From: Erythrobacter sp.
GTDB lineage: Bacteria; Pseudomonadota; Alphaproteobacteria; Sphingomonadales; Sphingomonadaceae
Assembly (NCBI GenBank): GCA_019739335.1
Contig: CP073261.1
Coordinates: forward strand, 248,001-312,000
DNA: 64,000 nucleotides
Direction of reading: 5' to 3'
A model generated the notes under the pieces. The model made no database searches. It was not told the DNA's origin and saw nothing but the letters and a program-made list of their open reading frames with translations. Below are positions 10,038 through 39,711 of this stretch, one piece after another (position 1 is the first letter of the stretch; every line of letters starts with the position of its first letter). A program made the translations under genes and the position numbers.

Positions 10038-10918
10038 TGTCCCTCCTCCAGCCACCATGCCAGCAAGGTATGCGCGATAGCCTCGGGCGGCGGGGCGACG
10101 AAGCTTTCCGCGTCGCGCCCCTTGGCCAGCGCCTCGGCCACTTCGGCGCGGCTGAACCAGCGCGCGTCTTCCAGTTCGGTCGTATCGATCGCCAGCTCGC
10201 GGCTGTCCGCAATCGCGTGGCAACCCAGCATCAATTGCGATGGGAACGGCCATGGCTGGCTGGCGACATAGCGCACATCGCGCACCACCACGCCCGCTTC
10301 CTCCAGCACTTCGCGCGCCACCGCTTCCTCCACGCTTTCGCCGGGCTCGATAAACCCCGCCAGCGCGGAATAGCTGCGCGGCGGAAAGCGGTTGCTCCGG
10401 CCAAGCAAGAGCGCGCCCTCATGTTCGACCAGCATGATCGCCACCGGATCGGTGCGCGGGAAGTGCTGCGCCTTGCAGGAACCGCAATCGCGCTGCCAGC
10501 CGCCCTTGCTCATCGCGGTCGGCTGGCCGCAATTGGCGCAGAAGCGGTGCCGCGCGTGCCAATCGACCAGACTGCGCGCGCCTGCGTAGATTGCCAGATC
10601 GCGCGGGGCGAGCGACATGATGATCGCCCGCCCTTCGCGCATTTCATAGGCGGGTCGCAGATCGCCTTCGGGCGCGACCGGGGCGAACAGCGGCGCGCCG
10701 TCTCGCAGGCCGAGGAACACCAGTTCGGCATCCTGCGCCAGCGTGTCGAGCGGTGCGAAGGTCAGGGCATTGCCCTCCACCACCGGCACCAGCCCGTCGA
10801 GCCGCATCACCCGTGCATCGGCACGCGCGCGCATCGCGGCGAGCAGCATGGGATCTGCACGGGTGCGATCATCCCGGTCCATCCCGTGGCCGGTGATCGC
10901 CGCTATGGGGAATGCCAT
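10034..10918 (-). CDS. nudC: NAD+ diphosphatase / RNA decapping Nudix enzyme NudC
   Basis: 294 residues. The order is an N-terminal domain, a zinc ribbon (FCANCGQPTAMSKGG ... CGSCKAQHFPR), the Nudix box (GFIEPGESVEEAVAREVLEEAG) and the NudC-diagnostic SQPWPFPSQLMLG. It hydrolyses NAD(H) to NMN and AMP and removes NAD caps from RNA. It sits in the middle of a coupled trio: its ATG shares one base with the stop of the upstream serine hydrolase, and its stop overlaps the GTG of the FrnE-like gene. Confidence 0.96.
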   Translation of the reverse strand: MAFPIAAITGHGMDRDDRTRADPMLLAAMRARADARVMRLDGLVPVVEGNALTFAPLDTLAQDAELVFLGLRDGAPLFAPVAPEGDLRPAYEMREGRAIIMSLAPRDLAIYAGARSLVDWHARHRFCANCGQPTAMSKGGWQRDCGSCKAQHFPRTDPVAIMLVEHEGALLLGRSNRFPPRSYSALAGFIEPGESVEEAVAREVLEEAGVVVRDVRYVASQPWPFPSQLMLGCHAIADSRELAIDTTELEDARWFSRAEVAEALAKGRDAESFVAPPPEAIAHTLLAWWLEEGQ

Positions 10919-12255
10919 CAGTTCGCCAGCATCCGCACCGCATCCTGCGCCACCACCAGCGGGAAGCGGCCCTGCACGTCGTACTCCTGCGCGGGCATAT
11001 ATTGCGTCATCAGCGTGTGCCTCAGGCCGTAATTGGTGTTCACCAGCCCCGCCGTGCCCGCTGCGCCGAACCAGCCGAACAGCCCCGCCGCATCGCCCTG
11101 TCCCACCAGACCGCCCGCGCCATAGCCGAACGCGCGCTCGCCGAAGGAAAAGGCACCATCGGCCGCCAGCGTATCGGGCATCAGATCGGAGGTACCGAGC
11201 CGCACCGCCGCCTCGCTCATCACCTGCTGCCCGTCGATCGCGCCCGAACCTGCAAGCATTTGCAGGAAGCGGTCATAATCGCGCGCCGAGGAAACCAGCC
11301 CCGCCCCACCGAACGGGAACGCTGGCTCATCGAGGAACACCGAACTGTTGGGCAGGTCGACCGGCACCGGCACTCCGCCGAGCAGGAAGTAATTCGCCGC
11401 AAGCCGCCCGGCATCCTCCCGCGCCACGCGGAAGCCGGTGGAGGCCATGCCGCAGGGATCGAAAATCCGGCTTTGCAGGAACGCATCGAAGGCCTGCCCG
11501 CTCGCTACTTCAATCACCCGGCCCAGCAGGTCGAGGCTGACCGAATAGCTCCAGCGGGTGCCCGGCTGGTAGACCAGCGGCATTTCCGCGAGGCCGTCGG
11601 CGAAATCTTCCAGGCTGTGCGTCGCCTCACCGCCGAAAATCGTCTGCGCCATTTCCAGTCGGCTGATCGCGCCGGGGATCAATCCGCGCGCTTCGTAGGC
11701 GGCTTTGAGCGGCCCCTGCTGGACGATGGAATAACCCAAACCTGCGGTGTGCGTCAGCAGGTGGCGGATGGTGATCGGGCGGACGGCGGGTTCCAGATTG
11801 TCCGCCGTGATCGCCCCGTCATAGGTCTTCTGCACCTGCATGTTGCGGAAGGCCGGGAGAATTTCGTGCAACGGCTGGTCGAGCGCGATCAGCCCCTCAT
11901 CGATGCACATCATCGTCGCCATGCCGGTGATCGGCTTGGTCATCGAATAGATGCGGTACAGCGTATCCGGCCCGACCGCGCTGGCCCCGCCGAAAGTACG
12001 ATCCCCGGCGGCGAGGAAATCGGGCGCGTTCTGCCCCCAGCCGAGCGCGGCGACCATGCCGGAAACCTTGCGCTCATCGACGTAGGAACGAACGAACTGT
12101 GCGACTCCCGGCCAGCGACTGGCAGTATCGGCGCTCTGGCCGAAAGCGAAGGAGGAGAACGGCAGCCCCGCAAAGGCAGCGCCCGCGCCGAGCATGGCTC
12201 CGCCGCGCAGGGCAGCCCGGCGGGAGAAGGTGGAAAACAGGATTTCGCTGGTCAT
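10918..12255 (-). CDS. Tat-exported serine hydrolase of the class C beta-lactamase family
   Basis: 445 residues. The N-terminus has a twin-arginine signal (SRRAALRG, 11-18, followed by a hydrophobic Ala/Gly run). The catalytic S104-M-T-K107 lies in RIYSMTKPITGMATM. A Tyr-containing YSVSLDLLGR segment corresponds to the Y-x-N/S motif. The family includes class C beta-lactamases, DD-peptidases and esterases (EstB type); the sequence resembles the esterase-like members, so resistance cannot be claimed. First gene of the minus-strand run hydrolase-nudC-frnE. Confidence 0.9.
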   Translation of the reverse strand: MTSEILFSTFSRRAALRGGAMLGAGAAFAGLPFSSFAFGQSADTASRWPGVAQFVRSYVDERKVSGMVAALGWGQNAPDFLAAGDRTFGGASAVGPDTLYRIYSMTKPITGMATMMCIDEGLIALDQPLHEILPAFRNMQVQKTYDGAITADNLEPAVRPITIRHLLTHTAGLGYSIVQQGPLKAAYEARGLIPGAISRLEMAQTIFGGEATHSLEDFADGLAEMPLVYQPGTRWSYSVSLDLLGRVIEVASGQAFDAFLQSRIFDPCGMASTGFRVAREDAGRLAANYFLLGGVPVPVDLPNSSVFLDEPAFPFGGAGLVSSARDYDRFLQMLAGSGAIDGQQVMSEAAVRLGTSDLMPDTLAADGAFSFGERAFGYGAGGLVGQGDAAGLFGWFGAAGTAGLVNTNYGLRHTLMTQYMPAQEYDVQGRFPLVVAQDAVRMLAN

Positions 12256-12350
12256 GGTGTACTCGCCAATGAGGATTCGGGGGTGAACCTAGCGGCAGAA
12301 ACCGGCACGGCAAGGTTGCAATGGCGAGGTGTATTGTCTATCTATAACGC

Positions 12351-12570
12351 ATGCTGAACATCGCCTCGATCCTGAGGCCTGCTCTCGCTGATCATCGTCA
12401 TCCCCGCACAAATTCCCCTGCTCGGCTGGGCCAACTGGATCGCCCTCCCCTTCGTGGTGGTGGGCATCATTCTGGGCCAGCTGTCGAGCAGCAACGGCGG
12501 GCGGAATTTCTGCCTGGTGGTCTTCGCCATTGCAGTGATCCGGCTGATGCTGGGCGGCGGGTTGCTGTAG
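12351..12570 (+). pseudogene. Small membrane protein gene interrupted by a +1 frameshift
   Basis: ATG 12351 opens MLNIASIL through 12374. From 12376 a different frame reads GLLSLIIVIPAQIPLLGW and on to a TAG at 12568-12570. Omitting the single A at 12375 joins the two into a continuous protein of about 72 residues with two hydrophobic helices separated by LSSSNGGRN. As written, the first frame continues into hydrophilic Arg/Pro-rich sequence and the second is closed by a TGA just upstream, so no single frame encodes the product. There is no slippery heptamer at the junction. This is either a real inactivation or a base-call error; unknown family. Confidence 0.6.
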
Positions 12571-12587
12571 CCGATCCGACGCGCGGC

Positions 12588-13853
12588 TCAGCCGCTGCTG
12601 TGTGCGCCGAGGAACAGCACTTCTCGCAGACGTTCCTGCGCTTCCAGATCGAGCCCCGATAGATCGGCAATATCAACGATTTCGTCTTCCTCGTCACTAT
12701 CGGCGAGGATAATTCGCAGCGGCTTCATTTTCTTGCCTGTGGCGAGCGAATAGAAGGCCTGCACGACGGGTTTGGCATTGGCCTCCTTGTCTTCGTCTAT
12801 CACCATTGCGATCCGTTCGCTGCGCAACCGCACGAACGAACCCACCGGATAGAGTCCGACCGATTCGATGAACTGGCGGAGAATCACAGGATCGAACGCG
12901 CCCTCCATCTCGACCAGCTTACGCACGGCCTGCGCCGGGTCGAGCGGGCTGGAACCGGCGCTGTCGGTGAGCATGTAATCGAAGCTGTCACAGAGCGCCG
13001 CCATACGGGCGAGCTGGCCGATATCGTCGGCCTTCAGCCCCTTCGGAAAGCCAGTGCCGTCCATCCGCTCGTGATGGTGCAGGCAGGCCTCCAGCACCGG
13101 GCGCGGGACTGTGCCTTCGTTTTCCAGTGCCCTGTGACCCAGGACGACGTGCTGCTCCCAGATCTTGGCACCCGCATTGCGGTAGTCGCCATTGGCAGGC
13201 GCGATTTCCTTCGGCAGGTAATTGGTACCGATATCGAGGAACAGCCCGGCCATTCCGGCCTGATAGGTTTCGTGATCGGACAGCTTCATTCTCGCCGCGA
13301 GCGAGACCATCAGCGCGCTGACGGCCAGCGCATGCCGATAGACGAACTCGTTGCTCAGCTTGCAGCGCATCAGCCCGCTGAATGCCTGCGGATTGCGGCG
13401 GACCGAATCGTAGACATCCCGGACTACCGGTTCCACCGCGCGCACGTTTAGGGCCTTGCCGAGCCGCGCTGCGAGGAATGCGCGAGAGAGCGATTTCTGC
13501 GCCGCGCCCGCAATATGCTCCGCCGCCTGCACTTCCTGCGCGGTGCTGGTCGGCATGATCGGCGGCGGCTCGATCGACTTGCGCTGCCGGAGCGCGCCGA
13601 TCCTGCCGGGCGCGGCCTTCGAGCCAGTGCGCACTGCCGCCGCAGGCGTCGCTTCGTCTGCGAGCCTTATGTCCTTGCCCTTCGCCGTGTCGATGATGAC
13701 GCCTTCGAGCCTGCTCGCGCGAAGCGTCTCAAGCCGGTTGGCGTCGCCAATCAGGAATTTGGCTTTCCAGAATGGATGATCCAGCCAGCCGCCCAGCATC
13801 TTGTGGACGTACATGCCGGTTTCCAGCTCGGAGAGTGCGACCCGTTTCAACAT
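12588..13853 (-). CDS. DUF3391 / HD-GYP-type protein with degenerate active site
   Basis: 421 residues from the ATG at 13853 (MLKRVALSELETGMYV, the DUF3391 start). The HD-GYP-like domain covers about 125-340. Visible ligands are H174, H235, H259-H261 with E262 and D265, and D289. The HD dyad, normally L-H-D-I-G-K, is L206-D207-I208-G209-T210, so the metal-binding His and the following Lys are missing; GYP is GFP (268-270). HD-GYP proteins hydrolyse cyclic di-GMP, but this one may be altered or inactive. The C-terminus (about 350-421) holds an extra acidic domain. It converges on the broken small gene. Confidence 0.85.
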   Translation of the reverse strand: MLKRVALSELETGMYVHKMLGGWLDHPFWKAKFLIGDANRLETLRASRLEGVIIDTAKGKDIRLADEATPAAAVRTGSKAAPGRIGALRQRKSIEPPPIMPTSTAQEVQAAEHIAGAAQKSLSRAFLAARLGKALNVRAVEPVVRDVYDSVRRNPQAFSGLMRCKLSNEFVYRHALAVSALMVSLAARMKLSDHETYQAGMAGLFLDIGTNYLPKEIAPANGDYRNAGAKIWEQHVVLGHRALENEGTVPRPVLEACLHHHERMDGTGFPKGLKADDIGQLARMAALCDSFDYMLTDSAGSSPLDPAQAVRKLVEMEGAFDPVILRQFIESVGLYPVGSFVRLRSERIAMVIDEDKEANAKPVVQAFYSLATGKKMKPLRIILADSDEEDEIVDIADLSGLDLEAQERLREVLFLGAHSSG

Positions 13854-13943
13854 TGTCAAACCAGTGCCTTCCACATGGGACCTTTCCGTCCACATGCCCG
13901 AAGCACCGGTGCAAAAGCCTCAGGACCGAATAGGTACTTTCAC

Positions 13944-14987
13944 CTAGTCAGGCCGATGGGCGAGCACCTGTCGCGCCGCTTTCGCAAACAGCGTCGGCAG
14001 GCCTGCCTCCTCCAGCCGGTCCAGCGGCCACCATTCGCCCTGGCCTTCCGGCGCAGCAGCAGCGCCGGCGAAGACCGCCACTCCCAGTTCGAGATCGAAG
14101 TGGGTGAAGCTGTGGCGTACCACGCCCGCGCCTTTCCAGCCGCCGCTCAGGGGCGCATCGCCGTGGCCGTCGCCTCGGGCAGACCAGCCGTCATCTGGCA
14201 GGGCGCGCATTCCGCCGAGCATTCCCTTGCCTGCCCGCTGCACCAGCCAGACCTTGCCATCGCGCTCGATCCAGAAGGCGGTGCCGACCCGGCTTGGCTT
14301 GGCCTTTTTCGCGGCCTTCACCGGCAGGCACAGCGGATCGCCGCTCGCCCGCCCCCGGCAGTGGGTGCTCACGGGGCACAGCAGGCACCTCGCGTCGCGC
14401 GCGGTGCAGATGGTTGCGCCGAGATCCATCATGGCCTGGGCAAAATCGCCCGCGCGGGTCTCCGGCGTGATCGAATCGGCTTTCGCGCGGATCGCCTTGC
14501 GCGCGCCGGGCAACGGCTCGGCAATGGCGAACAATCGCGCGACCACCCGCTCGACATTGGCGTCCACCACCACCGCGCGCTGGCCGAAGGCAATCGCGGC
14601 CACCGCCGCCGCCGTGTAATCGCCCAGACCTGGCAGCTTGCGCAGTTCCGCCTCACTGGATGGAAATCCCCCCAGATCCACCACCTCGCGCGCACAGCGC
14701 ACAAGGTTTCGCGCCCGCGAATAGTAGCCCAGCCCCGCCCAGGCGGCCATCACCTCTTCCTCCGGCGCCGCAGCGAGCGTCTGAACGGTCGGCCAGCGTC
14801 CCACGAATGTGCCAAAGTAGGGCGCAACCGCAGCCACGGTGGTCTGTTGCAGCATCACTTCGGACAGCCACACGCGGTAGGGATCGGGCAGCGCTGCCCC
14901 CGGCGCAGCCCGCCACGGCAAGCGGCGCGCATGGGCGTCGTACCATTCCAGCAGCAATGACGAGATTGAAGACTCTGTGGCGGACAC
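13944..14987 (-). CDS. mutY: A/G-specific adenine DNA glycosylase MutY
   Basis: 347 residues from the GTG at 14987; an ATG at 15035 would add 16 residues but overlaps the divergent DUF721 start. Signatures: LPWRAAPG, EVMLQQTTVAAVAPYF, the helix-hairpin-helix LPGLGDYTAAAVAAIAFG, and the catalytic Asp in VVVDANVERV. A [4Fe-4S] loop C-x6-C-x2-C-x5-C follows (CTARDARCLLCPVSTHC). The C-terminal third is the Nudix-like domain that reads 8-oxoG (HSFTHFDLELGV). It removes A mispaired with 8-oxoguanine. Divergent from DUF721 across a very short promoter region. Confidence 0.96.
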   Translation of the reverse strand: MSATESSISSLLLEWYDAHARRLPWRAAPGAALPDPYRVWLSEVMLQQTTVAAVAPYFGTFVGRWPTVQTLAAAPEEEVMAAWAGLGYYSRARNLVRCAREVVDLGGFPSSEAELRKLPGLGDYTAAAVAAIAFGQRAVVVDANVERVVARLFAIAEPLPGARKAIRAKADSITPETRAGDFAQAMMDLGATICTARDARCLLCPVSTHCRGRASGDPLCLPVKAAKKAKPSRVGTAFWIERDGKVWLVQRAGKGMLGGMRALPDDGWSARGDGHGDAPLSGGWKGAGVVRHSFTHFDLELGVAVFAGAAAAPEGQGEWWPLDRLEEAGLPTLFAKAARQVLAHRPD

Positions 14988-15016
14988 GCCCCGCCTATGG
15001 CATGGAGCGTCCTCCC

Positions 15017-15571
15017 ATGCCACGCGATGACACACCGAAACCGGGGAACAGCAGCCCCGCCCGCCCGCGCCGCACTGCCAAACCTTACGAGCGCCCCCGC
15101 GGTGGTCCGGCGAAGGCGGTGGCGGACCTCGTGCCGCAGATCGGCCGTGCCGCTTTCCGCCGCTTCGGCTTCGTGCAGTCGAGCGTCGTCACCCGCTGGC
15201 CCGAGATCGTCGGCCCGCACCACGCCAAGGTCTGCGCGCCCGAATGCATCCGCTTCCCGATGGGCGAAAAGACCGACGGCATTCTCGAACTGGTAGTGCT
15301 GCCGGCCCACGCGCCGCTGATCCAGCACGTGATCCCCGAAATCATCGAGCGGGTGAACCGCTTTTTCGGCTACAAGGCCGTGGCGAAAATCAAGATGCGG
15401 CAAGGCGCGGTTAAGCCACCCCCTGCTGGAGAGAAGCGCGGCATTCCGCCCTCGCTCAAGCCCATTCCGATGGACCTTGGCGAAGGCTTGCGCGATATCG
15501 GCGATCCGGAATTGCGCGCGGTGCTGGAATCGCTCGCCCGCAGCGTGGCGAACAAGGAGGAAAACGAGTGA
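15017..15571 (+). CDS. DUF721 (DciA-like) protein
   Basis: 184 residues from ATG 15017, selected because GGAG lies 9 nt upstream; an ATG at 15002 is possible. A basic, Pro-rich N-terminal tail (about 1-35) precedes the DUF721 core (LVPQIGRAAFRRFGFVQSS, VVTRWPEIVGPHHAKVCAPE, HVIPEIIERVNRFFGY). DciA-type DUF721 proteins load the replicative helicase in bacteria lacking DnaC; that role here is inference from the family. The stop shares a base with the ATG of the following dsbA-like gene (TGATG), indicating coupling. Confidence 0.88.
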   Translation: MPRDDTPKPGNSSPARPRRTAKPYERPRGGPAKAVADLVPQIGRAAFRRFGFVQSSVVTRWPEIVGPHHAKVCAPECIRFPMGEKTDGILELVVLPAHAPLIQHVIPEIIERVNRFFGYKAVAKIKMRQGAVKPPPAGEKRGIPPSLKPIPMDLGEGLRDIGDPELRAVLESLARSVANKEENE

Positions 15572-37904: not shown

Positions 37905-38938
37905 TCCACAAAAGTCCAGCCGAGCGTTTCCCCGGCGTGGAAGGGCACGAGTTCGGTTCCGGCGGCGGGAATGCTGCCGGGGACGGTGCATTTGCGCTTC
38001 TCCAGCGTCACCGTGGTGTCGTTCACGGGCAAGCCGTAGAAGGCCGGGCCGTGGAGGCTGGCGAAATGTTCGAAATGCTCCAGCGCATCCTCCGCCTCGA
38101 ACACCGCGAGATAGCTTTCGAGCGCATAGGGCGCGTTGAAAATGCCCGCGCAGCCGCAGGCGCTTTCCTTGGCTTCGCGCGCGTGGGGTGCGCTGTCGGT
38201 GCCGAGGAAGAACTTGGCGCTGCCCGATGTGGCGGCGCGGCGCAGCGCCAGCCGGTGCTTTTCGCGCTTGGCGACGGGCAGGCAATAGGCGTGCGGGCGG
38301 ATGCCCCCGACCAGCATGGCGTTGCGGTTGATATGCAGGTGCTGTGGGGTGATGGTCGCGGCGACATTTGCAGGTGCTTCGGTCACGAAATCCACCGCTT
38401 CGCTGGTGGTGATGTGCTCGAACACCACCTTGAGCGTCGGCAACTCAGCCAGCAGTGGGCGCAGGACCCGCTCGATAAACACCGCCTCGCGGTCGAAAAT
38501 GTCGATCTCGGCATGGGTCACTTCGCCGTGGACGCACAGGACCATGCCGATCTCCGCCATCACTTCCAGCACGGCACGGATATTGGCGATATCGGTCACG
38601 CCGCTGTCCGAATTGGTCGTTGCACCGGCGGGGTAGAGCTTGGCGGCAGTGAACACGCCTTCGGCAAACCCACGCCGCACTTCTTCGGGGTCGATATTGT
38701 CGGTGAGATAGCAGGTCATCAGCGGAGTGAAGTCCATGTCCGCCGGCAGTGCCGCGATGATCCGTGTCCGATAGGCGCGCCCCGCCGCCACGGTTGTTAC
38801 CGGCGGCGAAAGATTGGGCATCACGATCGCGCGGGCGAACTGGCGCGCAGTGTGGCCAACCACCGCCTCCAGCATCGCGCCATCGCGCAGGTGCACGTGC
38901 CAGTCGTCGGGGCGGCGGATGGTGAGGCTCGTCGTCAT
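37901..38938 (-). CDS. pyrC: Dihydroorotase, homodimeric class II
   Basis: 345 residues from the ATG at 38938. Zinc ligands and the carboxylated Lys are all visible: [44 protein letters not shown] and [14 protein letters not shown]. This is the E. coli PyrC-type enzyme. It closes carbamoyl-aspartate to dihydroorotate in pyrimidine synthesis; pyrE lies at 58 kb. Divergent from ygfZ by about 38 bp. Confidence 0.97.
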
Positions 38939-38976
38939 GCCATTGCCTATGCCGCGCCCCGCCCTATCTGTCACCC

Positions 38977-39711
38977 ATGACAATGGGCCGATTGAACAGC
39001 CGCGCCGTGGTGCGCGTTTCCCCGACCGATGCAGGCGAGGATGCCGCCGCTTTCCTCCAGGGCCTTCTCACCAACGACGTGACCGGAGCCCTCCCCGTCT
39101 ATGCCGCGCTGCTGACTGCGCAGGGCAAGGCGATGTTCGACATGATCGTGTGGCGCGACGGCGAATCGATGCTGCTCGACTGCGAGGCGGATCAGGCAGA
39201 GGCGCTGGCGAGGCGGCTGTCGCTCTATCGCCTGCGCCGCAAGCTGGAGATTGCGGTCGATCCCTTGCTGGGGGTGTTCTGGAGTCTCGATCCGGTGGAT
39301 GGCTACACTCCCGATCCGCGCCTGGCTGCGATGGGTTTCCGGCGGGTGGCCGAGTACCTCGACGGCATCGAAGCCGTCGACGAACAATACCTTGCCCACC
39401 GGCTAACCCAAGGTGTCGCGGAAGGCGTGGCGGAACAGGGCGACATCCTGTGGCTCGAAACCAATGCCGCCGAACTGGGCGGCGTCAGCTTCACCAAGGG
39501 CTGCTATATCGGGCAGGAAAACACCGCGCGGATGAACTGGCGGGCGAAGATCAACCGGCGGCTGATGGTGGTCCCGCTCGACCGCTCGGACGCAAAGCGG
39601 CGCAGGGCTGAATATCCCTCACTGGGGCTGGCAGTCGATCACTTGCGGGTGGAAGATATTCCCGCCGATCTGGTGCCGGGGTGGATGAACCTCTTCAACA
39701 GCGCGGATTAA
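38977..39711 (+). CDS. ygfZ: YgfZ/GcvT-like folate-binding Fe-S cluster repair protein
   Basis: 244 residues from ATG 38977 (another ATG two codons later). No Shine-Dalgarno is visible, so translation may be leaderless. The YgfZ hallmark KGCYIGQE appears in [17 protein letters not shown] with the essential Cys. Folate-binding domain features are at about 10-90 ([10 protein letters not shown]). It supports assembly or repair of Fe-S enzymes such as MiaB. Stop overlaps that of the convergent tetR. Confidence 0.93.

Follow-up and report, generated by a model that had tools for sequence, protein, structure and literature searches.

What happened to a small membrane-protein gene whose reading frame breaks after only eight codons? 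The question arises in the window, by which we mean the whole 64,000-nucleotide stretch of the Erythrobacter sp. contig CP073261.1 analysed here. On the forward strand, an ATG at 12351 opens eight codons encoding MLNIASIL (12351–12374), a single base follows at 12375, and a hydrophobic protein frame then continues in the +1 frame from 12376 to a TAG stop at 12568–12570 (64 codons and the stop). Both parts had been recognised in a first-pass annotation of the sequence, which was also right that the second has no start of its own: a TGA (12373–12375) closes it immediately upstream, and its earliest ATG, GTG or TTG is a GTG at 12454. As the sequence stands, the ORF read from ATG 12351 leaves the frame of the protein after codon 8 and ends at 12662, after 103 codons. 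The gene is present as a single copy in a genome assembled as one contig.

The break, its size and its direction can be read directly from a comparison with relatives. A 73-codon gene starts at the equivalent ATG in all 29 same-genus copies whose DNA was read (L002–L030, out of 34 matched) and in all 80 copies from named genomes (the best 80 of 213 confirmed loci); the two sets have 15 identical genes in common and together represent 94 distinct genes at 109 loci. In every relative read, the eight opening codons are followed by a complete ninth codon (ATC in 21 of the genus copies, GTC in 3, ACC in 2, and ACA, TTC and ATA in 1 each) and then by a glycine codon, whereas the window carries a lone A (12375) at this place and, when its DNA is aligned with that of eight relatives, shows a two-base gap at the ninth codon. 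With one base in the place of three, the window copy, judged against these relatives, lacks a net two bases of a 73-residue gene and is not one base too long. The extra base proposed by the first-pass annotation thus gives way to a net two-base loss; leaving out the A does open the 72-residue frame that it described, but not one of the 109 copies read has this length. Relatives with only one of the two frames, or homologues starting inside the second, were named there as observations that would speak against the split, and neither is present among these loci. The window copy has no uninterrupted 73-codon frame from its ATG.

The frame beyond the break belongs to a conserved protein. A chance open frame is ruled out, since the protein read from the second frame shares 94% identity with that of G016, the nearest relative, and, used alone as a query against 60 relatives, matched 34 of the 36 other genomes of the genus, in all cases without internal stops (E values 7.5e-35 to 2.9e-21), and none of the 24 genomes from the order's other families. 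Both genomes of the genus without a match are incomplete (87% and 70%); in G004, one of this pair, inspection by eye of the place beside the hydrolase gene shows no copy of the gene. A family profile matches the second frame at residues 10–73, which places it by similarity with the 73-residue protein encoded next to mutY, and it matches 161 of the 247 sampled genomes of the order, the organism's own included; the matches listed all came from the window's own family. In a 49-row alignment, P19, P23, G26, N29, W30, P34, G39, G43, G51, R65, G69 and G71 are invariant, among others. The structure predicted from this alignment for an intact relative (mean pLDDT 77, pTM 0.62) has three helices, at residues 2–17, 27–44 and 50–69, so that the two helices assigned in the first reading appear doubtful.

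No Pfam, NCBIfam or PDB family could be assigned to the protein at the thresholds used. The window's second frame had no Pfam match at E ≤ 1 and no NCBIfam match, and a Pfam search with 26 members returned three one-member matches only (E 0.03 to 0.68). NCBIfam matches among 49 members, the best of them to an OmpA-family lipoprotein model (E 0.0025, 9 members) and to PstA (E 0.0034, 1 member), were too weak to be retained. PDB sequences gave no match at E ≤ 1, and Foldseek none at E ≤ 0.001 with the predicted model. Our guess is that the product is an accessory or structural inner-membrane protein.

The neighbourhood of the gene is directly seen to be conserved. A divergent serine hydrolase gene on the reverse strand (10918–12255; Pfam Beta-lactamase, PF00144) adjoins the small gene at each of the 80 loci compared, with NudC beyond the hydrolase in 78, and a MutY-like adenine glycosylase gene (13944–15035, reverse strand; HhH-GPD, NUDIX_4) is the conserved downstream neighbour in all 80. 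The window copy also lies between serine hydrolase and MutY, with one extra gene before MutY: a reverse-strand DUF3391/HD-domain gene (12588–13895), HD-GYP-like by its domain make-up, which lies 17 bases past the stop of the small gene. It was matched in none of the 80 related loci and in 3 of the 37 genomes of the genus, the organism's own included, and is a probable recent gain, judging from this distribution. In G008, this HD-domain gene has a homologue (L202, G008:C3:474841-476118) that contains one in-frame TAA. At L044, L050, L053, L068, L073 and L082, MutY lies about 390 to 1600 bases from the start of the small gene, against 220–350 in most loci, so that this slot may be open to other DNA.

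Is the gene still equipped for expression? A generic promoter and terminator scan of 12250–12650 found none. An upstream profile of the 80 relatives L031–L110, numbered with the A of the ATG as +1, reveals strong conservation: TTG at −35 to −33 and A at −11 are invariant, and positions −10, −8, −7 and −4 to −1 are conserved in at least 95%. In the window, these positions coincide with a −35-like TTGCAA (12316–12321, forward strand), whose TTG lies at the same distance from the ATG in 80 of 80 relatives, and with a −10-like TATCTA (12339–12344, forward strand) 17 bases after it and 6 bases before the ATG, in a leaderless register. Because these elements are in the sigma-70 register for a transcription start on the ATG itself, the mRNA is likely leaderless. 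Zymomonas belongs to the same order as the window's organism. In Zymomonas mobilis, leaderless transcripts are documented for 119 of the 2,675 TSS-gene pairs counted in one report (PMC7566282).

An imperfect, operator-like inverted repeat of 22 bases (12329–12350, forward strand), recognised from the profile and from complementarity (65% complementary cells in the upstream profile), overlaps the −10 element. Its ends read GTGT ... ACGC in the window, against GTGT ... ACAC in most relatives (TGT-N14-ACA). In a scan of 21 genomes, the strict form of the pattern turned up a single time in each of 6, always at this small gene, and not in the organism's own genome. Most of 19 more distant or irregular gene copies that were read have other upstream sequences.

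Taken by sequence, neighbours, promoter and start codon, the window copy is like the Erythrobacteraceae genes for a 73-residue membrane protein that are flanked by a serine hydrolase gene and mutY, for example in Aurantiacibacter sp. 219JJ12-13 (L054), A. odishensis (L035) and A. zhengii (L037), and it differs from them in lacking a net two bases at codon 9. How old, then, is the break? Past constraint on the second frame is directly visible. Across its 64 codons, 32 synonymous and 5 nonsynonymous changes separate the window from G016, giving a pN/pS of 0.06 (0.07 against G018); the mean is 0.334 between the window and the 29 relatives and 0.368 among the relatives themselves (sd 0.129, 406 pairs), all rough figures, as synonymous sites are far apart between the sequences. 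Relaxed constraint was thus sought across 29 relatives and showed no sign, the values being like those of intact copies, which is also what a very recent break would give. Because the constraint matches that on intact genes, the break is, on these comparisons, either later than nearly all of the divergence or absent from the organism. Like an ordinary bacterial pseudogene made by a small indel, the window copy has a disabled frame where its orthologues are intact; it differs in having no decay so far, so that the lesion would be very recent or not real.

Two explanations share most of the probability. The one we favour, and regard as probable, is that the gene was recently inactivated by an ordinary net two-base deletion at codon 9 that is real in the organism. 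The main rival, which we hold to be clearly less probable and yet a serious possibility, is an error of assembly or consensus, with the organism's gene intact and two bases missing from the given sequence. An error would account for a second-frame constraint as strong as in intact copies, for conservation of the gene across the genus (34 of 36 other genomes) and for an intact promoter and start; indeed, undiminished constraint is equally expected from a sequence error, and retention of the gene by nearly all relatives in the genus counts against a real loss. On the other side, the place of the break is not a homopolymer, and broken copies occur in other genera too.

The quality of the surrounding assembly weighs on the same question. 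In a census of 59 window genes (48.6 kb) comparable with G016, the alignment covered 85% or more of the gene in 54 cases and no gene was flagged as broken, under a filter that can miss short breaks near gene ends and that listed the focal gene itself as partial (residues 10–67), unflagged. Against other relatives, 4 of 55 genes (G018) and 2 of 58 (G017) were flagged; we judged these six to be out-of-frame ORF extensions, with one of them examined closely. That one, at 38740–39324, has no gap against G016, and its mismatch pattern changes between one gene and the next, so it is not a break. The final census retained the best non-overlapping genes before flagging; an initial one made without that step flagged many pairs, most of which we took for out-of-frame ORFs of a G+C-rich genome, since a gene with a better score lay over most of these regions in a single frame. 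Within 168 kb of the organism's genome on either side, only 20 genes were comparable and one was flagged. Because the assembly looks locally good, the balance tilts to a real mutation, and it is the lack of another flagged frame break among the 59 genes compared with G016 that leads us to favour a recent loss over an assembly error.

Other readings fare far worse. The loss could have come about through remodelling of the locus, linked to the gain of the HD-GYP-like gene (a possible cyclic-di-GMP phosphodiesterase) rather than by accident, which we consider very unlikely. Still less credible is a shortened protein made from GTG 12454, which would open 38 codons of the second frame that take in part of helix 2 and, beyond it, helix 3: 12454 bears no mark of a start, many invariant residues precede it, and all copies read begin at the ATG equivalent to 12351. 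Least credible of all, to the point that we reject it, is programmed +1 ribosomal frameshifting joining the two frames, which would fit the conservation of both halves as protein and the clean +1 step at the junction but is disfavoured because a shift site, sought at the 109 loci read, was found at none of them, each being unsplit at this place, and which would moreover yield 72 residues against the 73 of all copies and would probably have the P-site CTG re-pair with TGA, a poor slip. Genes such as prfB are examples of programmed +1 frameshifting; the window copy is like them in having two frames joined by a +1 step and differs in that no shift site is conserved and no relative read is split.

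We thus return to a recent deletion in the organism's own DNA as the preferred account. An orthologue of a well conserved 73-residue protein, presumably of the inner membrane, would have lost a net two bases at codon 9, which falls within the first of the predicted helices. With start codon and promoter seemingly intact, an mRNA, probably leaderless, would still be made; translation from ATG 12351 would leave the frame of the protein after eight residues and yield a 103-residue product of unrelated sequence, from which we infer that the gene is inactive. The initial reading, recent loss or sequencing error with programmed shifting less likely, holds in outline, with intact homologues, retained constraint and no shift site, and fails on the direction and size of the event, while its helix count is doubtful.

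Disrupted copies of the gene occur in other genera as well. Among the 161 matched genomes, three were picked from irregular rows of the profile search: the G140 copy (L174) has a frameshift near residue 49, the G121 copy (L173) has an in-frame TAG at its fifth codon, and G069 (L197, L200) perhaps has a copy split by about 200 bases, the first part of which matches weakly. That a few further relatives carry breaks of independent origin suggests a dispensable gene.

The correction made here prevents a false candidate for frameshift decoding and an incorrect 72-residue model from entering the record. It also yields the outline of a small, conserved protein of the membrane that was matched in 161 of the 247 genomes sampled from the order and belongs to no Pfam family at the cut-offs used, together with a promoter that, in the copies read from Erythrobacteraceae, is very conserved and apparently leaderless.
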